A DNA stretch of 64,000 nucleotides, taken from Gammaproteobacteria bacterium. GTDB taxonomy: Bacteria > Pseudomonadota > Gammaproteobacteria > JAABTG01. The DNA lies in the NCBI GenBank assembly GCA_034522055.1, contig JAXHLS010000002.1, positions 930,001 through 994,000 of the forward strand, given 5' to 3'. This document shows, one piece after another, positions 90 to 37,640 of the stretch (its first letter is position 1; every line of letters begins with the position of its first letter). The translations under genes were made by a program, and so were the position numbers. A model generated the notes under the pieces. It made no database searches. It saw nothing but the letters and a program-made list of their open reading frames with translations, and was not told the origin of the DNA.

Positions 90-214
90 TAGTAAAGCCT
101 GGCGGGGGCGACGGCAAACGGGAGCGCCACACGGCGGCCCTGCGGTTGCTCCACCGCCTGGTGGCGTGCGGGGCCCTCAGGCGGGTGTCGCCGTAATGAG
201 TCGCCGACAGGACC

Positions 215-1963
215 TCAGCCGGCCACGGGCTCCACGTGCTCCACCATGAGCTGCAGGCTGCGGCGGCCACGGTAGTGGTTGACGTCCAGTCGGTAGACCA
301 ACACCACCCGCCGCACGCCCCCCGGCCACTCCTCGTCCGTGTGATTGAAGGCGATGGCATCGGCCACCCGTTCGGTGCCGGGTATACGCACCGTCATCTT
401 GAGGTGCTGATCCCCCAGCACCCGCCGGTCCAGCAGCTCGAACTCGCCATCGAATACCGGCTCGGGGAAGCCCTGGCCCCAGGGTCCCGCATCCCGCAGG
501 GCGGCGGCGGTGGCGAGGCAGAACTCCTCCGCTCCCACCGCGCCATCGGAATGGACCACCGCCTCCAGCATGTCCCCGTCCACGAGCCCGCCCACCACGG
601 CCTGGAAGGCGCCGGTGAAGGCCTCCAGGCGAGCGGTGTCCAGGGACAGGCCGGCCGCCATGGCGTGGCCGCCGAAGCGATCCACCAGCCCCGGATGGCC
701 GGCGGCCACGGCATCCAGGGCATCGCGGATGTGCAACCCGGGGATGGAGCGGGCCGAGCCCTTGATCTCCCCGTTGCCCCGCGCCGACGGCGCGAAGGCG
801 ATGACCGGCCGGTGTACGCGCTCCTTGATGCGGGAGGCGAGGATCCCCACCACCCCCTCGTGCCACGACGGATCGTAGAGGCACAGGGCGGGAGGCAGCC
901 GGCTGCTGTCCAGCTTCATGCTCCGCAGGATGGCGAGCGCCTGGGCCTGCATGTCCGCCTCCACGGCGCGGCGCTCCTGGTTGAGGGCGTCCAGCTCCCG
1001 GGCCATCTCGAGGGCCTGCGCCTCATCCGTGGCCAGCAGGCATTCGATGCCCAGGGCCATGTCCGTCAGGCGCCCCGCCGCATTGAGCCGCGGCCCGACG
1101 GCGAAGCCGAGATCCTTGGCCACCAGCTCCGCCGGCTCCCGCTTCCCCACCCGGCACAGGGCGGCGATGCCGGGGCGCCCGCGGCCGCCGCGGATGCGCG
1201 CCAGGCCCTGGGACACGAGGAGGCGGTTGTTGGCATCCAGGGCCACCACATCGGCCACCGTGCCGAGGGCCACCAGGTCGAGCCAGTCCGCAAGGTTGGG
1301 TCGGGCCACCCCCGTGCCTTCGAACCAGCCGCGGGCCGCGAGCACCGCCCGCAGGGCCGCCATGAGGTAGAAGGCGACACCCACCCCGGCCAGGGCCTTG
1401 CTGGGAAAGTCACAGCCGGGCTGGTTGGGGTTGACGATGGCATCGGCGGCCGGCAGCTCGGCGCCGGGCAGGTGGTGGTCCGTGACGATGACCCGCATCC
1501 CCGCCTGCCGGGCCGCCGCCACGCCGGCGACGCTGGAGATGCCGTTGTCCACGGTGATGATGAGGTCCGGCGGCGGGTCCTGGGCCGCCGCCACCGCCAC
1601 GATCTCGGGGCTGAGGCCGTAACCGAACTCGAAACGGTTGGGCACCAGATAGGCCAGATTGCGGTGGCCGAGGGCCTGCAACACCCCCATGATGAGGGCG
1701 GTGCTGGTGGCACCGTCGGCATCGTAATCCCCCACCACCAGGATGCGGCCACCCGCCGCCATCACCTCGGCCAGCAGCGCCGCGGCCCCTTCGATGCCCT
1801 TGAGGCGGCTGTAGGGCAGCAGGCGGGCGAGGGAATAGTCCAGCTCTTCCCCGCAGGCCACCCGGCGGCTGGCGTAGATCCGCGCCAGCAGCGGCGGCAG
1901 GCTCCCGGCCAAGGCCGGGGGCACCGGCCCGGGGTCCCGCCGCAGGATGCGCCGCGGGGTCAT
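215..1963 (-). CDS. recJ: Single-stranded-DNA-specific exonuclease RecJ
   Basis: RecJ degrades single-stranded DNA 5' to 3' in recombination and mismatch repair. The 582-residue product matches the usual RecJ length. The DHH phosphoesterase motifs are visible: GDYDADG at residues 78-84, then ITVDNG and VTDHH. A DHHA1-type GGHAMAAG motif lies towards the C-terminus. The ATG at 1963 is chosen because it yields the family N-terminus; the open frame upstream reads through the preceding gene and shows no RecJ similarity. Its start overlaps the stop of the RpfE-type gene by four bases, so translation is probably coupled. The rpfE-recJ pairing is also known from Xanthomonas. Confidence 0.95.
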   Translation of the reverse strand: MTPRRILRRDPGPVPPALAGSLPPLLARIYASRRVACGEELDYSLARLLPYSRLKGIEGAAALLAEVMAAGGRILVVGDYDADGATSTALIMGVLQALGHRNLAYLVPNRFEFGYGLSPEIVAVAAAQDPPPDLIITVDNGISSVAGVAAARQAGMRVIVTDHHLPGAELPAADAIVNPNQPGCDFPSKALAGVGVAFYLMAALRAVLAARGWFEGTGVARPNLADWLDLVALGTVADVVALDANNRLLVSQGLARIRGGRGRPGIAALCRVGKREPAELVAKDLGFAVGPRLNAAGRLTDMALGIECLLATDEAQALEMARELDALNQERRAVEADMQAQALAILRSMKLDSSRLPPALCLYDPSWHEGVVGILASRIKERVHRPVIAFAPSARGNGEIKGSARSIPGLHIRDALDAVAAGHPGLVDRFGGHAMAAGLSLDTARLEAFTGAFQAVVGGLVDGDMLEAVVHSDGAVGAEEFCLATAAALRDAGPWGQGFPEPVFDGEFELLDRRVLGDQHLKMTVRIPGTERVADAIAFNHTDEEWPGGVRRVVLVYRLDVNHYRGRRSLQLMVEHVEPVAG

Positions 1964-3006
1964 CGTTCCAGTACTTGCCACAGGTCCACCGCCACGGGCG
2001 CCACCGGCCGCCGCCACCAGCGGCGGGCGGCGCGGCGATCGAGGGCCAGGCTGCGATTCTCCGTATGGAGTACCAGTTCGGCGATGGCGCCACCGCGCAG
2101 GGCCTCCTCCAGGGGGGCGAGCCAGTTCCGCTCCACGGTCCCCAGAGCCTCCCGCCACGCCTCCACGTCGCCGTAGCAGACCGCCTGCCAGGCGTCCTCC
2201 ACCATGAAGAGATGGACCCCCGGCGCCATGTCGCGGGGGGGCGGGGCGGCGGCGGGCGCGGGGCCGCGCCAAGCCTCTCCGGCGAGGGCGCGCAGCAGGT
2301 CGTCGCCGCCCCATACCCCCGTCCAGCGGTGGGCGCCCGGTGCCACGGGCACCCCGCCACCCCAGATCCACAGGCTGTTCACGACGGGCTCCCCCCGGGC
2401 CTCCCGGGCCCGGTTCACCGGATGGTCGTGGAGGGTCATCTGGATCTCGTTCAACACCCCCCGCCACTGGGCACCCTCCGGCCCGCCCGGCAGGTGCCGG
2501 CGCACATCCGCCCCGGCCAAGCGCTTCGGGCTCCCCGCCTCGATGGTCAGGGGTTCGTCGGCGACCAGGTACCAGCGTGCGGGGGCCGGCATCTCCAACC
2601 GCCAATCCCGGGCCGCCGCCAGGGGCACGATGTCCCGGACGAGCGCGGTAGCCTCGGCGGCGTCCAGGCGAAAGGTGTCGGGTCCGAAGAGGATGGCCTT
2701 GCTGATGTCGGTGTGCAGGTGCACCGGATCGGCCCGCAACACCCAGTGTCCATCCGCGGCCACCCCGTCCATCACGGCCGTGGCCGCGGCGGCCGATGGT
2801 GGCTCCCGGGTGGGATGACCGAAGAGGTGGAACAGGGCCGTCTCGATGCCCCGCGCCGGTGCCGGGGCGGCGGCGCCACGGCCCAGCAGGCGCGCCAGTA
2901 CCGGTAGCCCCAGCCCCGCAAGCAGGGCCGCGGGCGCCTCCCGCAGGGGCAGGGTGAAGAGTCCGGGCAGGAACAGGGTGATACGTGGCGCGTCAGCGGC
3001 CACCAT
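1960..3006 (-). CDS. RpfE-type regulatory/phosphoglycerate-mutase-like protein (COG4255)
   Basis: This 348-residue protein resembles the conserved proteobacterial family annotated as RpfE-type regulatory protein or cofactor-independent phosphoglycerate-mutase-like protein. It is typically encoded next to recJ, as here. Visible family-like stretches are the central HWVLRADPVHLHTD segment, LNEIQMTLHDHPVN, and NSLWIWGGGVPV. No signal peptide or membrane segment is evident, so it is probably cytosolic. Its stop overlaps the recJ start by four bases and it follows thrC on the same strand after 14 bases, so it likely lies in one transcript with hom-thrC. The biochemical function is not established. 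Confidence 0.75.
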   Translation of the reverse strand: MVAADAPRITLFLPGLFTLPLREAPAALLAGLGLPVLARLLGRGAAAPAPARGIETALFHLFGHPTREPPSAAAATAVMDGVAADGHWVLRADPVHLHTDISKAILFGPDTFRLDAAEATALVRDIVPLAAARDWRLEMPAPARWYLVADEPLTIEAGSPKRLAGADVRRHLPGGPEGAQWRGVLNEIQMTLHDHPVNRAREARGEPVVNSLWIWGGGVPVAPGAHRWTGVWGGDDLLRALAGEAWRGPAPAAAPPPRDMAPGVHLFMVEDAWQAVCYGDVEAWREALGTVERNWLAPLEEALRGGAIAELVLHTENRSLALDRRAARRWWRRPVAPVAVDLWQVLER

Positions 3007-3020
3007 ACACCGCCGTCTCC

Positions 3021-4163
3021 TCAGGCGAGGTTATCAAGGATGGCCTGGCGCACGGCACCCAGCTCGGCGTCGATGGCCAGCATGGGAGCCTTGCTTTGGC
3101 TGATGGCGGTATCCGGATCCTTGAGGCCGTGTCCCGTGAGGGTGCACACGACGGTGCTGTGCTCCGGGATGCGCCCGCTCTCCAAGTCCCGCAGGGCGCC
3201 CGCCACGGAGGCGGCGGAGGCCGGCTCGCAGAACACCCCCTCCTTCTCGGCCAGCAGCTTCTGGGCCAGTAGGATCTCGTCGTCGGTACACTCGTCGAAC
3301 CAGCCCCCCGACTCCTTGGAGACCTTCCAGGCATAGTCCCAGGACTGGGGATGGCCGATGCGGATGGCGGTGGCCACGGTCTCGGGATCGTCCACCATGG
3401 CGCCGCGTATGAAGGGGGCGGAGCCGGCGGCCTGGTAACCCACCATCTTGGGCCGCGTACCCACCAGGGAGCCGCCGGCATAGGTGCAGTTGCCGTGACA
3501 GAAGCTGCAGGCCTCCGTGAGGTGCTCGCCGGAGCCGGAGGAGGCCTCGCAGTAGCCGATCCAGTGGGCCGTGATGTTGCCGGCATTGCCCACGGGCAGG
3601 CAGTGGTAGTCGGGGGCCCGTTCCAGTTCCTCGATGATCTCGAAGGCCGCCGTCTTCTGGCCCTGCAGGCGATAGGGATTGATGGAGTTGACGATCGTCA
3701 CCGGGGCCTCCTCCGCCACGTCCTTCACCAGCTGCATGCCGGCATCGAAGTTGCCTTTGATCTGGATGATGGTGGCGCCGTGCATCATGGCCTGGGCCAG
3801 CTTGCCCATGGCGATCTTGCCGTCGGGTATGAGCACGAAGGCGGTGATGCCGGCGCGGGCGGCGTAGGCCGCCGCCGACGCCGAGGTGTTGCCGGTGCTG
3901 GCACAGATGATGGCCCGGCTGCCCTCCTCCACCGCCTTGGTCACCGCCATGGTCATGCCCCGATCCTTGAAGGAGCCGGTGGGATTGAGGCCCTCGTACT
4001 TGAGGTATATCTCCACCTCCCGGCCCAGGGCCCGGGGGATGTTGTTCAGGCGGATGAGGGGCGTGTTGCCCTCCCCGAGGCTGATGATGCGGGTGTCGTC
4101 ATGGATAGGCAGCCGGTCGCGGTACTTCTCGATGAGGCCGGTGTAGCGGGGGCGGAAGGTCAT
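3021..4163 (-). CDS. thrC: Threonine synthase
   Basis: ThrC converts O-phosphohomoserine to threonine with pyridoxal phosphate. The Schiff-base lysine is K66 in GSFKDRGM, and the phosphate-binding loop VGNAGNIT is at about residues 191-198. The ATG at 4163 gives a family-like start ([14 protein letters not shown]). The upstream in-frame extension is only translated repeat DNA ([11 protein letters not shown]) and is rejected. The 380-residue enzyme carries an extra loop after VGNAGNIT with Cys205, Cys219, Cys222 and Cys226, absent from the short classical bacterial form I compared from memory. It lies downstream of hom and serves the same pathway. Confidence 0.95.
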
Positions 4164-4183
4164 GGCAGGAACTTGTTCCCTTT

Positions 4184-4311
4184 GGTGAATGGAGAATGGA
4201 TGAAGGTGAATAGTGAATGGTGAATAGTGAATGGTAAAAGCAACCACTGAGCGAGTGTCTACTATTCACCATTCACTATTCACTATTCACTGCCTTATCA
4301 CTATTCACTAG
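4184..4311. repeat. Paired inverted arrays of a GTGAATA/G heptad (locus 1)
   Basis: Copies of GTGAATA and GTGAATG run in tandem at about 4184-4234. The same array occurs in reverse complement at about 4261-4311, separated by a 26-base core. The transcript could fold into a long imperfect hairpin between hom and thrC. The hom stop codon sits inside the right array. The same architecture recurs near 10.0, 28.3-28.6 and 38.9-40.9 kb. Confidence 0.85.
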
Positions 4312-5624
4312 CTGTTGAGATACTCCACCCGGATACGCGTCACGCCGCCGGCCACGGGCTCCAGGGCCTCGATGCGGACCAGGGCCTCGTTCATGCTGCA
4401 TTCGCGCACGCGGTGGGTCAGGAGCACCAGGGGCACCCGCTCGGTGCCGATGGCCTGCTCCTTCTGGATGACGGCCTCGATGGAGATGCCGGAGTCGGCG
4501 AGGATACGGGTGATGTCCGCCAGCACGCCGGCCTGGTCCCGCACCTGCATGCGCAGATAGTAGGCGGTCTCCACCTCCTCCATGTCCACCATGGCCAGCT
4601 CGGTGTTGAGGGCGTCGGGCTGGAATGCCAGATGGGGCACGCGGTTGTTGGGGTCGGTGGTCAGGGCCCGGGTGACGTCCACCAGGTCCGCCACCACCGC
4701 CGATGCCGTGGGTTCGGCCCCGGCACCGGCGCCGTAGTAGAGGGTGGGACCCACGGCATCGGCCATCACCAGCACGGCATTCATCACGCCGTCCACGTTG
4801 GCGATGAGGCGGCGCTCCGGAATGAGGGTGGGATGCACCCTGAGCTCGATGCCACCGTTGGTACGGCGGGTGATGCCGAGGTGCTTGATGCGGTAGCCCA
4901 GCTCCTCGGCGTAGGCCACGTCTTCCGGGGCGATGCCGGCGATACCCTCGGTATAGCACTTGTCGAACTGCAGGGGCACGCCGAAGGCGATGGAGGCCAG
5001 GATGGTGAGCTTGTGGGCGGCGTCGATGCCCTCCACGTCGAAGGTGGGGTCGGCCTCGGCATAGCCCAGCGCCTGGGCCTCGGCCAGCACGTCGGCGAAG
5101 GCACGGCCCTTGTCCCGCATCTCGGTGAGGATGAAGTTGCCGGTGCCGTTGATAATGCCGGCCACCCACTGAATGTGGTTGGCGGCGAGCCCCTCGCGCA
5201 TGGCCTTGATGATGGGTATGCCCCCCGCGACCGCCGCCTCGAAGGCCACCATGACGCCGCGACGCTGGGCGGCCAGGAAAATCTCGTTGCCGTGGTGGGC
5301 GATGAGGGCCTTGTTGGCGGTCACCACGTGCTTGCCGTTCTCGATGGCCTTGAGGATGAGGATGCGGGCCAGGTCGTAGCCGCCGATGAGTTCCACCACC
5401 ACCTCCACGGCGGGGTCATCCACCACCGCCATGGCATCGCTGCTCTGGCGCACCCCGTCGAGGCCGAGCTCGGCGACGCGATCGAGATTGAGGGCCGCCA
5501 CGTGGCTGATCTCGATACCGCGACCGGCCCGCCGGGCGATCTCCGCACCGTTACGGCGCAGCACGGTGGCGGTGCCCCCGCCCACGGTGCCGAGCCCCAT
5601 CAAACCCACTCTTACCGGTTCCAA
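4308..5624 (-). CDS. hom: Homoserine dehydrogenase
   Basis: This enzyme reduces aspartate semialdehyde to homoserine for threonine and methionine synthesis. The Rossmann motif GLMGLGTVGGGT is at the N-terminus. The catalytic region follows, and a C-terminal ACT domain (YYLRMQVRDQAGVLADITRI) probably gives feedback control. The start is taken as TTG at 5624, with GGGGG nine bases upstream, because it gives the family N-terminus (fMet-EPVRVG) and starts four bases beyond the alaC stop. The longer frame back to 5780 runs through alaC and adds 52 unrelated residues. The last codons lie in a repeat array. It is monofunctional, with no aspartokinase domain. Confidence 0.93.
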   Translation of the reverse strand: MEPVRVGLMGLGTVGGGTATVLRRNGAEIARRAGRGIEISHVAALNLDRVAELGLDGVRQSSDAMAVVDDPAVEVVVELIGGYDLARILILKAIENGKHVVTANKALIAHHGNEIFLAAQRRGVMVAFEAAVAGGIPIIKAMREGLAANHIQWVAGIINGTGNFILTEMRDKGRAFADVLAEAQALGYAEADPTFDVEGIDAAHKLTILASIAFGVPLQFDKCYTEGIAGIAPEDVAYAEELGYRIKHLGITRRTNGGIELRVHPTLIPERRLIANVDGVMNAVLVMADAVGPTLYYGAGAGAEPTASAVVADLVDVTRALTTDPNNRVPHLAFQPDALNTELAMVDMEEVETAYYLRMQVRDQAGVLADITRILADSGISIEAVIQKEQAIGTERVPLVLLTHRVRECSMNEALVRIEALEPVAGGVTRIRVEYLNS

Positions 5625-5628
5625 GGTA

Positions 5629-6822
5629 TCAATCCCCCGTAATGCCGTCTTTGCGCAGCATGCTGCGGATACCGCGTACCGCCTGGCGGGTGCGGTGCTC
5701 GTTTTCGATGAGGGCGAAGCGCACGTGAGCGTCGCCGTAAGCCCCGAATCCCACCCCCGGCGAGGCCGCCACCTTGGCATCCCGCAGCAGCTTCTTGGAG
5801 AACTCCAGGGACCCCATCTCCCGGTAGGGCTCCGGGATGGGAGCCCACACGAACATAGTGGCCTTGGGGGGCTCCACCGGCCAGCCGGCGGCGTTCAGCC
5901 CCTGGCACAGCACGTCGCGGCGGTTGCGATAGGTGGTGCGGATCTCCTCCACGCAGTCCTGGGGCCCCTCCAGGGCGGCGATGGCGGCCACCTGCACCGG
6001 GGTGAAGATACCGTAGTCCAGGTAGGACTTGATGCGCCGCAGGGCCCCCACCAGGGTGCGGTTACCCACCATGAAACCGACCCGCCAGCCCGGCATGTTG
6101 TAGCTCTTGGAGAGGGTGAAGAACTCCACCGCCACCTCCTTGGCGCCGGGCACCTGGAGGATGGAGGGGGCCTCGTAACCGTCGAACACCAGGTCGGCGT
6201 AGGCGAGGTCCTGGATCACCCAGATCTCGTGCTCGCGGGCGATGGCCACCACCTTTTCGTAGAACTCCAGGTCCACGCACTGGGTGGTGGGGTTGCTGGG
6301 GAAGTTGAGCACCAGCAGCTTGGGCTTGGGCCAGGAATCCTTGATGGCCTTCTCCATCTCGGCGAAGAAGTCCACGTCGGCGCCGATGGGCACGTGGCGG
6401 ATGTCGGCCCCGGCGATGACGAAGCCCCAGGGGTGGATGGGATAGGAGGGGTTGGGCACCAGTACCGCATCCCCCGGCTCCACGGTAGCCAGGGCCAGGT
6501 GGGCCAGCCCCTCCTTGGAGCCGATGGTGACGATGGCCTCCTCGTCCATGTCGAGGTCCACATCGTAGCGAACCTTGTACCAGTTGCAGATGGCGCGGCG
6601 CAGGCGCGGGATCCCCCGGGACATGGAGTAACGGTGGGTATCGTTGCGCTGGGCCACTTCCACCAGCTTGTCCACGATGTGGCGGGGCGTGGGCCGGTCG
6701 GGGTTGCCCATGCCGAAATCGATGATGTCCTCGCCCCGGGCCCGCGCCTCGGCCTTGAGTTGATCGACCGACGCAAAGACGTACGGCGGCAAACGCTTGA
6801 TACGCGGGAATTCTTCAATCAC
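5629..6822 (-). CDS. alaC: Alanine/glutamate-pyruvate-type class I aminotransferase
   Basis: This fold-type I PLP aminotransferase is of the AlaC kind, transferring amino groups between glutamate and pyruvate; older annotations often call it aspartate aminotransferase. The sequence shows [12 protein letters not shown] near the N-terminus, [21 protein letters not shown], and the lysine motif [18 protein letters not shown] at 6822 is preferred because the product then begins [17 protein letters not shown], as in family members; the upstream extension to 6888 looks random. It is the first gene of the alaC-hom-thrC run, which begins in the gap shared with a divergent gene at 6943. Confidence 0.88.
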
Positions 6823-28272: not shown

Positions 28273-28317
28273 GGGGAGGTCCTTGTGCGGTGGAATGGTT
28301 AACGGTCGGGATCGAAG

Positions 28318-28592
28318 GATAAAGGGAATAGGGAATAGGGAATAGCGAATGACGGAGCGTGGCTGGCGTGATCCATTTGTGGGTCGGGATTCATCCCGAC
28401 ATCCGACCCCGCTGCAGGCACCCTGCGCCGGCTGGCAATTCCTTATGTTGGAGTGTCGGACTGAAGTCCGACCTACAGTCCGCCCTACAATCCGACCTAC
28501 AGTTTCCAGAGCCCGGGGGCATAACAGGGGGGTGGCCGCCGGCACGGCATCGCCTTTACTATTCCCTATTCCCTATTCCCTATTCCCCAATA
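28318..28592. repeat. Inverted GGGAATA arrays flanking a REP doublet (locus 3)
   Basis: The gap between purT and the CDF gene (divergent) has GGGAATA tandem copies at 28322-28346 and their reverse complement at about 28557-28590. The core of about 200 bases holds a REP unit (GTCGGGATTCATCCCGAC at 28384) and degenerate partners (TCGGACTGAAGTCCGACC near 28459). No gene is seen. Promoters for both flanking genes must lie at its edges. Confidence 0.8.
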
Positions 28593-28597
28593 CCCCC

Positions 28598-29269
28598 GTG
28601 TCCGATTGTTGCTCCAATGCCGGCTGCGAGACGGCCAAGCTGAGGGAGAGCCAGGCCGGCACCCTCAAGGCCGTGCTCCTGATCAACGCGGCCATGTTCG
28701 CCGCGGAGTTGACGGCCGGCCTGGTGGCCGGCTCCACGGCCCTGCTGGCCGACTCCCTCGACATGCTGGGGGATACCCTGGTCTACGGCTTCAGCCTCTA
28801 CGTGGTGGCGCGCAGCGACGGCTGGAAGGCGGGGTCCGCCTTCGTGAAGAGTGGCATCATGGCCGCCTTCGGCCTGTTCGTGCTGGGTCAGGCGGTGTAC
28901 AAGGTCCTGCACCCGGCGCTACCCGAGGCCGGGATCATCGGCGCCATGGGCCTGCTGGCCCTGGCCGCCAATACTGTCTGCTTCGCATTGCTATGGCGCC
29001 ATCGGGCCGCCGACGTCAATATGCGCTCGGTGTGGTTGTGCTCGCGCAACGACATCATCGCCAACCTCGGGGTGCTGGCTGCGGCGGCGGGGGTATGGCT
29101 GCTCCACAGCCAGTGGCCGGACGTGGTGATCGGCCTGGCCATCGCCCTGCTGTTCCTGCACTCGGCCCTGGCTGTGTTCCGGGACGCGCTCCAGACCCAC
29201 CGCGCCCACCGGCGCCGCCTGACGGAGGCATGGCCCACCACGGGCGGCCCCCGCAGCGGGAAACACTGA
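28598..29269 (+). CDS. Cation diffusion facilitator-like metal transporter
   Basis: A 223-residue membrane protein with about six transmembrane segments. It has CDF-style metal motifs in TM2 (ALLADSLDMLGDTL) and TM5 (LCSRNDIIANLGV). The N-terminus has a cysteine cluster (DCCSNAGC), as in several short cation transporters. GTG at 28598 is the start; upstream in-frame sequence is repeat-derived. The C-terminal cytosolic domain is short. The metal is not predictable. The next gene, a glutaredoxin, follows after 18 bases. Confidence 0.75.
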   Translation: MSDCCSNAGCETAKLRESQAGTLKAVLLINAAMFAAELTAGLVAGSTALLADSLDMLGDTLVYGFSLYVVARSDGWKAGSAFVKSGIMAAFGLFVLGQAVYKVLHPALPEAGIIGAMGLLALAANTVCFALLWRHRAADVNMRSVWLCSRNDIIANLGVLAAAAGVWLLHSQWPDVVIGLAIALLFLHSALAVFRDALQTHRAHRRRLTEAWPTTGGPRSGKH

Positions 29270-31711: not shown

Positions 31712-32218
31712 TCAACCTGTGTCACCAAGATTTACCGCAGTCCGGACGGCCGGGAGGGTAATCTTGGGCAGGTTCGTACGCAGGCACTGGGCGGAGAGAT
31801 ACTCGCGCCAGTAAGGCCACACGTGATAGCTGGCGTTACTGTGGGCAAACAAGCGCTGGGACTCGTCGTCCAGAAATTCCCGCATCAGGTATTCCGCGAC
31901 CATGGTACCGTCGATGCGCGCCCTCTCTGGCGCCGCATCGGCCGAGGGTGCGGCCGGCATCGACGCGCCCTCCTCGGCATCCACCCAGCGCGCACCCAGG
32001 TCGATATATACACGAAAGAGAAGCTGCATCGAGCCGTTCTCGTCTTCGAGTTCCATCACCTCCGAGCGCCGCACGCGATGTTTGAACTGGACCAGCAGAG
32101 ATTCGGCATCGGAATCGTACTTGGGCTCGAAGTCCTCCGCGAGGACGATACTGGCCGAGCGCAGGTAGACATCGTGGATCTCGAGGTTCTCGATGGCCCG
32201 TTTCAGAGCGGCTTCCAC
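31712..32218 (-). CDS. SecB-like chaperone of a toxin-antitoxin-chaperone module
   Basis: 168 residues with the SecB-type ending HVWPYWREYLSAQCLRTNLPKITLPAV and a beta-rich first half (VYLRSASIVLAEDFEPKY...LLFRVYIDLGARW). It is not housekeeping secB by context, since it begins three bases after the hicB stop on the same strand. SecB-like proteins in TAC modules bind the antitoxin, protect it from proteolysis and so hold the toxin in check. I infer that role here. Confidence 0.8.
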   Translation of the reverse strand: MEAALKRAIENLEIHDVYLRSASIVLAEDFEPKYDSDAESLLVQFKHRVRRSEVMELEDENGSMQLLFRVYIDLGARWVDAEEGASMPAAPSADAAPERARIDGTMVAEYLMREFLDDESQRLFAHSNASYHVWPYWREYLSAQCLRTNLPKITLPAVRTAVNLGDTG

Positions 32219-32221
32219 TGC

Positions 32222-32695
32222 CTAGACCACCTCTGAAAGTTCGGTGGCACGAACCAGCCTGAGGTGCCGCCTAGACTTCGTCCTGTCCATCGCGGGACGA
32301 CCCACGCTCTCCCAGGGAGATCCGCCCTCGTGCCGCTGGCCGGCGGCGAAGCCGGAGTAATAGGTCAGGACGTTGACCAGGTGCTGATTGAGGCTGACGC
32401 CCTCGGCCTCGGCCGCCTCCACCAGGGCGCGATGGAAGCTCTTCGCAATACGCAGGGTCACCCGGCCGCTGTAGTCATCGGCGGGCTCGATGGGCCGGGG
32501 CAGCGTCCGGCCCTGCTCCGCCCAGGCCTCGGCGGTGGTTTCGACGGCATCGACGGCGAGTTCATAGGCCTCGTCGTAGCTTTCCCCATACTCCACTAGG
32601 TCGGGCAACTCTCGCACCCGAGCCTCGAACAGCGTCTCCCCGTCGAAGTCGCCGCGACGAACGGTGATGTTGTAGGTGTGGGCGTCAATGGTCAT
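32222..32695 (-). CDS. hicB: HicB-family antitoxin with ribbon-helix-helix and C-terminal tail
   Basis: 157 residues. The N-terminal HicB partial RNase-H fold (ITVRRGDFDGETLFEARVRELPDLVEYGESYDEAYELAVDAVE) is followed by an Arc-type ribbon-helix-helix (SGRVTLRIAKSFHRALVEAAEAEGVSLNQHLVNVL). An extra basic/hydrophobic tail of about 40 residues could be the chaperone-addiction segment that makes TAC antitoxins unstable without SecB. It overlaps hicA by 11 bases. The ATG at 32695 is preferred over an upstream in-frame ATG at 32731, inside hicA. Confidence 0.85.
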   Translation of the reverse strand: MTIDAHTYNITVRRGDFDGETLFEARVRELPDLVEYGESYDEAYELAVDAVETTAEAWAEQGRTLPRPIEPADDYSGRVTLRIAKSFHRALVEAAEAEGVSLNQHLVNVLTYYSGFAAGQRHEGGSPWESVGRPAMDRTKSRRHLRLVRATELSEVV

Positions 32696-32987
32696 GGTCT
32701 TGCTCCAGGAGTTCGATAAACTCCGATTCATAGCGCCGAATCAACCGTATGATCTGGGTGACGTAGGCGGGCTTAATCTCCGGGTTCTTGCCGTGGCCGC
32801 AGGTGAAAGCGCCGGAACGAAATGCCTGGATACCATGGTGAACGAACACCCGGTGCCCCGATTTCTTGCCTTCCCGCACCTCGAACCCCAGCCGCTGCAG
32901 GCAATCGATCATGTGCTGACAGCGGACCGATGCCTTCGAGCGCTCAAGATCCGCGACTAAACCGTACAGGCGGTCTCGAGCGTTCAT
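32685..32987 (-). CDS. hicA: HicA-family mRNA interferase toxin
   Basis: A 100-residue small basic protein with the HicA core QRLGFEVREGKKSGHRVFVHH. His45 sits in the G-x-K-S-G-H position expected for the catalytic histidine of the dsRBD-like fold. The second half (FTCGHGKNPEIKPAYVTQIIRLIRRYE) matches a longer HicA subfamily. HicA toxins cleave mRNA and tmRNA. It is the first gene of the hicA-hicB-secB-like operon; its start codon touches the operator. Confidence 0.82.
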   Translation of the reverse strand: MNARDRLYGLVADLERSKASVRCQHMIDCLQRLGFEVREGKKSGHRVFVHHGIQAFRSGAFTCGHGKNPEIKPAYVTQIIRLIRRYESEFIELLEQDHDH

Positions 32988-32988
32988 C

Positions 32989-33025
32989 TGACACCATATT
33001 TAGTGTCACCAAGGCACTTTGTCAA
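32989..33025 (-). promoter_or_regulatory. Promoter and overlapping palindromic operator of the hicA-hicB-secB operon
   Basis: On the minus strand a perfect -35 TTGACA (33025-33020) is followed after 17 bases by TAAATA (33002-32997). The palindrome TGACAC/GTGTCA (32989-33008, 8-base spacer) covers the -10 and reaches within one base of the hicA ATG. It is a good binding site for the HicB ribbon-helix-helix. The leader would be very short. Confidence 0.7.
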
Positions 33026-35608: not shown

Positions 35609-35699
35609 ACGAATGAATTTCGGAATTTCGGGTAGAGTAGAGAGCAGGCCCTAACGCCCGTAGGTCCGGCTTAGCGGTTCCCGCCCCTTTCGTTTGGCG

Positions 35700-37640
35700 G
35701 TGCCTAAATAGCCGGGCCGTAGCCACCAGGGCCAGCCCTCCCTCATCAAACCGTGCATACGGTTCTCCCGTACACGGCTTTCCGATGTGCTTCACGCCAA
35801 GGCATGCGCTGAGCGCCAGCCTGCTTTGTGGGATAGCTTGAGTAATCCAAGGGCGTCGTGGAGGTGGGCGTAGGGAAAGCGTTCGTAACCGCGCGTGCGA
35901 GTGCGCACTTTGTGACGCCGCCGCAGTTGGGTACGCACGCGTTCCTCAGTGAACCACCGGACGCGTCCGAAAGCCTTGGTGCAGTTGCCGTAGTGGAAGT
36001 AGCCCGACCAGCCGCGTAGCACTTGGTTCACTTCCGTGATCATACGCGGCATCGGCACCGGGGTGCGGCGCCGCGCGGTGAGTTCCTTGATGCGCGCCTT
36101 GATCCTTCGTTCGGCGCGACGGCTCGGCTCAACGTGAGGGTAGCCGTTGCCGGTTCGTCGGCTGCGTGCCCATTTGATGCTGAAGCCAAGAAAGTCGAAC
36201 GCCTGTCGGCGGGCATCGACCTCGTGGGTTTTCTCCCGGTTGAGCGTCAACTCCAGGCGTGTCAGCACCGTCTCAAGCACCGCCATGGCCGGCGCGGTGT
36301 CCCCACGACACAGAATCACGGCATCGTCAGCGTAACGCACGAGGCGCGCCCCTAACCGCCGTTCCAAGTCGTGCCGTTCCCAAATCCGGTCCAGCAGATG
36401 TAGATAAAGATTGGCCAGCAGCGGGGAAACAACCCCGCCTTGCGGCGTCCCTTTCCGATTCCCTTTACCGCCACTCGGGCGTTGCTTGCCTCGCCCATCC
36501 TCTTCGATGACCGGGGCCTTGAGCCATTGCTGAATGAGGGCGAGGACGCCTCCATCGGCAAGGCGCTCGGCAACCACGGCCATGAGCTTGGCGTGCGGGA
36601 TCGTATCGAAATACTTCGATAGATCCGCATCGATGATTTGGGTCTTTCCCTGAAACAGACCGTCGGTGACGGCCTTCACCGCATCATGGGCCGAGCGCTG
36701 CGGGCGAAATCCATAGGAGTGCTCGCAGAAATCAGCCTCGAAGATCGGCTCCACCACCAGCTTGAGCGCCATCTGTACGATCCGATCCCGGATTGTGGGG
36801 ATCCCCAATGGGCGCTCACTGCCATCCGGCTTGGGTATCCAGACCCGACGCACGCCGTCCGCGCCGTACGTCTTCTGCTCCAGTTCCCGTTGCAATTCCG
36901 CCAAGTAGGCGTCTCTTCCGACCCCCGCCTCGATGGCCTCACAGGTCACACCATCGATTCCTGGCGCGCCCCGATTGGACCTGACACGATCATAGGCGTG
37001 ACCGAGAGTGTCTGCCCGATAGACCTTGTCATACAAGGCGTAGAAGCGAAACGCCGGCTCTTGCTTGGCCTTGACGTAGAGCTTCCTCTGCAGCGTCCTG
37101 ATCTTTTCCGGAGTTGTTAGCGACATCGCCGCAATCTCCTGACCCTCTGCGTTTCGGTTGCGTGCACAAAGTAGGGTCCCTTCCCTCAGGTCGGGTTATG
37201 TTGTCCCAGACCCTCAATCGGTACTATGAACCCCTCCGACTCCCACGACGGTCGATGACGACTTCGGACTGGCCTTATACGCCACCGTCGGCAGTTCTCA
37301 CCTGCCACCGCCGCGGGCCTCCCGCACTGGGACCAATCAACTTCCACCACATGCCACCCGTACTACCCCGGAAGACTCAGCGGGACGCTCTCGTCGTCTC
37401 CTCCCACCAACAGCGGCCTTCCCCGACTGTCCACCGGGTCGGCATCTTCACTTTGTTCACGAGGCTACATATCGGTTCGCTTGCGCTGCGGCCTGCGGTT
37501 TTGCATCTACGTAACTTACGACCCCCGGTTACCCGGACGCCGCTCCGCGACACTACAAAGGTGTACGAGCAACTCCTTTGGCGGGACTCTAACCCGCTAG
37601 TTAATCAGCGTGTTACGGCATACGGACAGTATACTAATTA
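35700..37640 (-). mobile_element. Group II intron with reverse transcriptase
   Basis: The minus strand reads: a GC-rich structured 5' region (about 37640-37127, containing GCGGGTTAGAGTCCCGCC, characteristic of domain I), the maturase ORF, then a domain V hairpin (35748-35781; AGCCGTGTACGG-GAGA-ACCGTATGCACGG) and a domain VI-like stem near 35705-35745. The ends are approximate. The 5' end abuts an inverted repeat (GTATACTGTCC) downstream of prmB, as if inserted at a hairpin, reminiscent of terminator-targeting introns. Confidence 0.75.
35792..37126 (-). CDS. ltrA: Group II intron-encoded reverse transcriptase/maturase
   Basis: 444 residues with the RT blocks: RSNRGAPGIDGVT (RT0-1), RVWIPKPDGSERPLGIPTIRDRIVQMAL (RT2), YGFRPQRSAHDAV, DADLSKYFDTIPH, GTPQGGVVSPLLANLYLHLLD and the catalytic RYADDAVI. 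The maturase X domain (VNQVLRGWSGYFHYGN) ends the protein. No HNH endonuclease domain is visible, so mobility would depend on RT/maturase only. The gene appears intact. Confidence 0.93.
   Translation of the reverse strand: MSLTTPEKIRTLQRKLYVKAKQEPAFRFYALYDKVYRADTLGHAYDRVRSNRGAPGIDGVTCEAIEAGVGRDAYLAELQRELEQKTYGADGVRRVWIPKPDGSERPLGIPTIRDRIVQMALKLVVEPIFEADFCEHSYGFRPQRSAHDAVKAVTDGLFQGKTQIIDADLSKYFDTIPHAKLMAVVAERLADGGVLALIQQWLKAPVIEEDGRGKQRPSGGKGNRKGTPQGGVVSPLLANLYLHLLDRIWERHDLERRLGARLVRYADDAVILCRGDTAPAMAVLETVLTRLELTLNREKTHEVDARRQAFDFLGFSIKWARSRRTGNGYPHVEPSRRAERRIKARIKELTARRRTPVPMPRMITEVNQVLRGWSGYFHYGNCTKAFGRVRWFTEERVRTQLRRRHKVRTRTRGYERFPYAHLHDALGLLKLSHKAGWRSAHALA

Follow-up and report, generated by a model that had tools for sequence, protein, structure and literature searches.

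In toxin–antitoxin–chaperone (TAC) modules, a short tail can make a protein dependent on one chaperone. The HigBA1-SecB-TA system of Mycobacterium tuberculosis (Rv1955–1957) combines a HigBA pair, whose antitoxin carries a C-terminal addiction tail, with a SecB-fold chaperone of known structure (5mtw; PMC6377645). In CmdTAC (PADLOC PD-T4-9), the toxin CmdT is an ADP-ribosyltransferase and the third component is SecB-like; CmdC senses a capsid protein and the LAA-type end of the CmdA C-terminus is a ClpXP signal (PMC11618068). MqsRA-SecB TACs contain the antitoxin MqsA (PF15731).

A HicAB pair has been shown to behave as a TAC in Methylomonas methanica (Mmet; Bordes et al. 2016, PMC5105189), which is the only experimental study of a HicAB TAC found in searches of an open-access library. 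According to that paper, residues 119–159 of Mmet-HicB transfer chaperone dependence in a swap of the chaperone-addiction (ChAD) tail, E. coli SecB can be substituted in export by TAC chaperones, the Mmet and Vcho chaperones (about 53% identical) show cross-talk, and the ChADs of the four tested systems share no significant similarity with each other. The HicAB-type TAC is therefore already known and less novel than assumed in the first-pass annotation, which had described HicAB versions as noted but little studied.

The locus described here is a further member. It lies in a 64,000-nucleotide stretch of gammaproteobacterial DNA, referred to as the window, and is very probably a chromosomal tripartite HicAB-type TAC module that is addicted to its chaperone through the HicB tail. 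Reading from the promoter side, its features are as follows:

32997..33025, minus strand: promoter-like TTGACA-N17-TAAATA, read from the sequence, with its -10 box inside the palindrome spacer
32989..33008, no strand assigned: palindrome TGACAC-N8-GTGTCA just upstream of the hicA start, the likely operator for HicB
32685..32987, minus strand: hicA-like toxin gene, 100 aa, with a conserved G-H and an NPEIKP core
32222..32695, minus strand: hicB-like antitoxin gene, 157 aa from ATG, with a ribbon-helix-helix (RHH) domain in the C-terminal half
32225..32356, minus strand: candidate ChAD tail of HicB, the C-terminal 44 residues after the RHH, including the W in SPWESV and an LRLV stretch
31712..32218, minus strand: SecB-like chaperone gene, opening with GTG 3 nt behind the hicB stop and encoding 168 aa

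Open reading frames place hicA, hicB and the SecB-like gene head to tail on the minus strand, overlapping or 3 nt apart as had been annotated, so that a toxin–antitoxin pair and a SecB homologue share one operon-like cluster, the arrangement that defines a TAC. The longest hicB frame is open to 32731 (169 aa), but the gene probably starts at the internal ATG at 32695, because aligned relatives begin there; the overlap with hicA is then 11 nt rather than the 47 nt of the long frame. HicA stays under the Pfam cut-off for PF07927 (23.2 bits against 27, E 7.3e-5). In all seven aligned sequences, H45, which we take to be the catalytic residue, and much of the HicA core are unchanged. The RHH-form antitoxin domain ascribed to HicB at first reading is confirmed by PF05534 (9.4e-11).

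In a module of this kind, HicA would act as a ribonuclease toxin that is neutralised by HicB, and the tail of about 44 residues would hinder the folding of HicB itself unless the dedicated SecB-like protein binds it. With the chaperone missing or occupied, HicB would misfold or be degraded and HicA would be set free. The RHH domain of HicB probably represses the operon via TGACAC-N8-GTGTCA at the hicA start. For the window, we infer the chaperone dependence of HicB, the activity of HicA, autoregulation and degradation alike. The assignment as a TAC is based on the gene order, the SecB fold of the third protein, a housekeeping secB located elsewhere, the association of the tail with the chaperone and the absence of both in three branches, the conserved palindrome and homology to the tested Mmet TAC.

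The Mmet system is represented among the relatives by L162 (MC09), in which three published primers match exactly and HicB has the published 159 aa. Identities to its proteins are 47% for the SecB-like protein, 55% for HicB and 47% for HicA. Both loci contain HicA, a tailed HicB and a SecB-like chaperone in that order and share the same palindrome, whereas the Mmet chaperone nests with Methylococcales MqsRA-linked chaperones and not with the HicAB-linked group of the window.

The SecB identity of the third protein had been proposed from the sequence alone. Pfam and NCBIfam return 0 families and 0 matches, respectively, and naming the gene from these collections was abandoned on that account; a single-sequence PDB search gave a chance match only. 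The proposal nevertheless holds at the level of the family, since a 27-sequence profile of the window chaperone family detects 5mtw, the TAC chaperone of M. tuberculosis, at E=1e-5. An AlphaFold model of the window protein (pLDDT 90.5) has 5mtw as its best match, followed by H. influenzae and E. coli SecB; identity to the M. tuberculosis chaperone is 16–18% in structural alignments, and the partners there are HigBA rather than HicAB. In the chaperone alignment, PF02556 reaches E 0.1 or lower for 5/27 members, the best value being 0.0089, and the window protein is under the Pfam cut-off. By family profile and predicted fold, the third protein is thus a SecB-fold chaperone. It is not the only secB of the genome, because a search elsewhere found the canonical housekeeping gene at G000:C2:2138390 (PF02556, 193 bits).

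The HicB tail, counted as the residues after the RHH, is 44–57 aa long in 12/12 SecB-linked HicBs, including the 44 aa of the window. Twenty-nine HicBs were collected without a detected third gene, and the 26 counted were those with a full-length HicB and 400 nt or more of downstream sequence; L062, L071 and L132 have less sequence or are incomplete and were dropped, L062 showing a 37-aa tail at a contig edge. Tails in this group do not exceed 18 aa in 25 of the 26, the exception being L067 with 57 aa. The second HicAB pair of the window's own genome (L048), which is without SecB, has a HicB tail of 3 residues. In a 26-row tree built from HicB bodies, the tail excluded, one clade (100/100) holds 14 tailed and three tailless members, and a SecB-like chaperone accompanies 14/14 of the former and 0/3 of the latter. 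The tailless members, L061, L163 and L164, sit on three separate branches, two of them with strong support. The related loci thus represent a natural experiment, in which three separate branches lack both tail and chaperone, and this supports the earlier proposal that the tail is a chaperone-addiction segment. L061 is an orphan HicB without hicA, 193 nt of sequence follow hicB in L163 and about 2.8 kb in L164, and the operator palindrome is degenerate in L163 and L164.

The expectation that HicBs without SecB would not share the tail thus stands, and within this clade the chaperone-free relatives lack the extension. Exceptions outside the clade are the long-tailed L067, L181 and L169. No SecB-like gene follows hicB in L169. 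In L167/L181 and L067, the long-tailed HicB is followed by a third gene of 84–85 aa (L067 1075–1332 and L181 2274–2528, both minus strand; 37% identical to each other). The encoded proteins of L067 and L181 have no Pfam match, and the L181 gene of 84 aa found no match in 299 genomes in a search run without a positive control. Such a protein is possibly another kind of third component. In L165, SecB is present and HicB is damaged. A row consisting of a DUF4258 protein, a zinc-finger/HTH protein and a 166-aa protein of SecB-like appearance (the last two judged by eye) occupies L088 3786–5124 on the plus strand, with an orphan tailless HicB downstream at 5725–6096.

Ten of the 12 distinct SecB-linked loci carry the palindrome TGACAC-N8-GTGTCA without change, and L014 and L059 deviate from it at one position each. 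The palindrome spacer resembles a -10 box in 8/12 of these loci, which would put the transcription start of these eight on or close to the hicA ATG. With the -10 box of the window inside the spacer, the hicA transcript would be nearly leaderless; a consensus promoter scan reported no sigma-70 site. Four copies of the palindrome are present in the genome, compared with about 0.3 expected by chance for 12 fixed bases, and by ORF reading the window copy is the only one outside coding sequence. The other three were considered as additional HicB targets and rejected, as one falls within a PilY1-like gene and the remaining two within coding sequence of a duplicated stretch, one in each copy. This stretch of 3 kb (C2:1488891–1491910 and C2:3415425–3418444; L151, L153) is 97% identical between its inverted copies, and its genes resemble by eye those of integrating conjugative elements.

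SecB-like relatives of the window chaperone, 73 distinct ones by adjoining antitoxin, mostly lie behind MqsA-type or HTH (HigA-like) antitoxins, the former label resting on a cysteine pattern and the latter on exclusion; Pfam found MqsA in 2/2 and an HTH domain in 4/4 of the examples tried. MqsRA-SecB TACs (e.g. L016, L033) provide the most numerous close chaperone relatives, while their antitoxin is MqsA and not HicB. Twelve distinct relatives, window included, are linked to HicB, and HicA adjoins all 12 of these HicBs. Since this combination of three genes is also found at 11 other distinct loci, and at three more in an additional set, its occurrence in the window is more than chance. Of 369 genomes sampled from the class, 11 contain the chaperone family, which occurs with HicAB in three (window, G512, G651); the one same-genus and two same-family genomes in the sample lack it.

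A ChAD motif shared between antitoxin families was sought in both directions. A motif (LRVVSSS) trained on 28 of 35 MqsA tails after removal of redundancy gave a summed score of 60.7 over 11 of the 12 HicB tails, versus 11.3 ± 8.8 in shuffles, and scored 8.5 or higher in 4/11 HicB tails versus 7/360 natural control 48-mers. The window tail scores 2.1. Reverse training from HicB to MqsA failed (P 0.40), as did training from MqsA to HigA (P 0.09) and from HigA to HicB (P 0.92). A general shared ChAD motif was rejected on these grounds and because the prophage-type HicB tails described below lack it (0/12 at 8.5); the motif is common to some HicB and MqsA tails only, and no claim is made for the window. 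At the very C-terminus, several relatives end in AA, VA, YA or YG, and the window HicB ends in SEVV, unlike the LAA-type end of CmdA.

A second group of loci comes from 12 distinct viral contigs (within L136–L148), in which HicB tails are 80–112 aa long and a third gene of about 140 aa stands behind HicB in 11/11 inspected. Searches with the third proteins gave no convincing sequence match in Pfam or the PDB, and profile comparison with the window chaperone family is weak (probability 27%, E 6.5e-4). An AlphaFold model of one of them (pLDDT 88.9) again matches 5mtw best and then canonical SecB. Nine HicB bodies of this group were placed in the tree and fall beside the clade of the window (100/100). 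The palindrome appears as TGACA-N10-TGTCA in 10/10 of these loci whose sequence reaches upstream of hicA (L137 and L146 do not extend far enough), and no member of the no-third-gene group has it. With the fold taken from the model, the viral-contig loci look like a divergent HicAB TAC branch, whose SecB-fold third protein is missed by sequence searches.

Chaperones also appear to have moved between toxin–antitoxin families. Trees were built from 41 and 40 rows chosen from 72, the 40-row tree including three new rows. Among the Methylococcales, chaperones of HicAB loci (L030, L161 and the tested L162) join the MqsA-linked ones (96/99), and a constraint that unites all 15 HicB-linked chaperones is rejected (p-AU 0.0012; 0.0046 with 12 rows). 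The other 12 fall on one side of a branch of limited support (92/83), the window chaperone grouping with 11 other HicAB-linked ones. The chaperone of Methylococcales HicAB thus seems, on tree evidence, to have come from an MqsRA-type family. Co-transfer of tail and chaperone finds no support: the HicB tails of L030, L161 and L162 remain closest to other HicB tails in local alignment, and only an exchange of the chaperone is therefore claimed. The reported cross-talk between Mmet and Vcho chaperones (PMC5105189) would fit such an exchange. The only tested HicAB TAC found in the literature searches may consequently carry a chaperone that is untypical of HicAB TACs, and for this reason the lineage of the window might be more suitable for studying HicB-specific addiction.

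A broader history can be proposed tentatively, at slightly below even likelihood. HicAB TACs would be one old lineage, marked by an operator palindrome of its own and divided into two branches with sequence-dissimilar SecB-fold chaperones. Chaperones would have been exchanged between unrelated toxin–antitoxin families, as from MqsRA to Methylococcales HicAB, and tail and chaperone would be one dispensable unit that is lost whole, turning a TAC into a plain HicAB. The chaperone may serve as a sensor, which in prophage-borne members would respond to phage proteins.

A CmdTAC-like role in phage defence, which would refine the TAC assignment and not exclude it, is rather unlikely for the window. 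In this model, titration of the SecB-like chaperone by a phage protein leads to loss of HicB, upon which HicA cuts mRNA and the infection is aborted. The PADLOC model for the third component of PD-T4-9 matches 23/27 members of the chaperone alignment, albeit weakly (best 1.4e-6, window 0.0054), and CmdC provides the precedent of a capsid-sensing chaperone (PMC11618068). The relatives L104 and L136 lie in phage-type contigs beside integrases, and L108 has its module after hsdM and a YhcG/DUF1016 nuclease gene. Because such relatives adjoin integrase or restriction genes and CmdTAC sets a precedent, phage sensing by prophage-borne members is possible by analogy. A prophage is, however, a site where any toxin–antitoxin system can sit, PADLOC has no convincing family for either HicA or HicB of the window, and the neighbours examined there are msrAB, a hydrolase gene and a HemN-like gene rather than defence genes. 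The toxin of the window is HicA-like, unlike the ADP-ribosyltransferase CmdT. In L108, a viral-collection contig, the nuclease gene, hsdM and the HicAB-SecB module lie within 99–4471, a defence-like setting.

It is very improbable that the locus is an ordinary two-gene HicAB beside a solitary SecB-like export chaperone, the tail being a neutral extension: the replacement of E. coli SecB by TAC chaperones, the lack of a strong motif in the window tail and the long-tailed, chaperone-free L169 in the wider HicB family would suit it, but the three-gene set occurs in 12/12 distinct SecB-linked HicBs, tail and chaperone are both missing in 3/3 tailless members, and a close homologue is experimentally chaperone-dependent (PMC5105189). 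The TAC assignment itself has points against it, namely the HicA score under the Pfam cut-off, the low motif score of the window tail, a HicB terminus without the LAA-type end of CmdA, the short sequence after hicB in L163 and the missing hicA of L061.

Elsewhere in the window, a group II intron on the minus strand (35632–37590; Rfam RF02005 and RF00029) adjoins a HemN-like gene and contains a reverse transcriptase/maturase ORF at 35792–37126 (Pfam RVT_1 and GIIM). Positions 28280–28620 contain short repeated stretches, so that peptides such as IPYSLFP turn up again and again in several frames.
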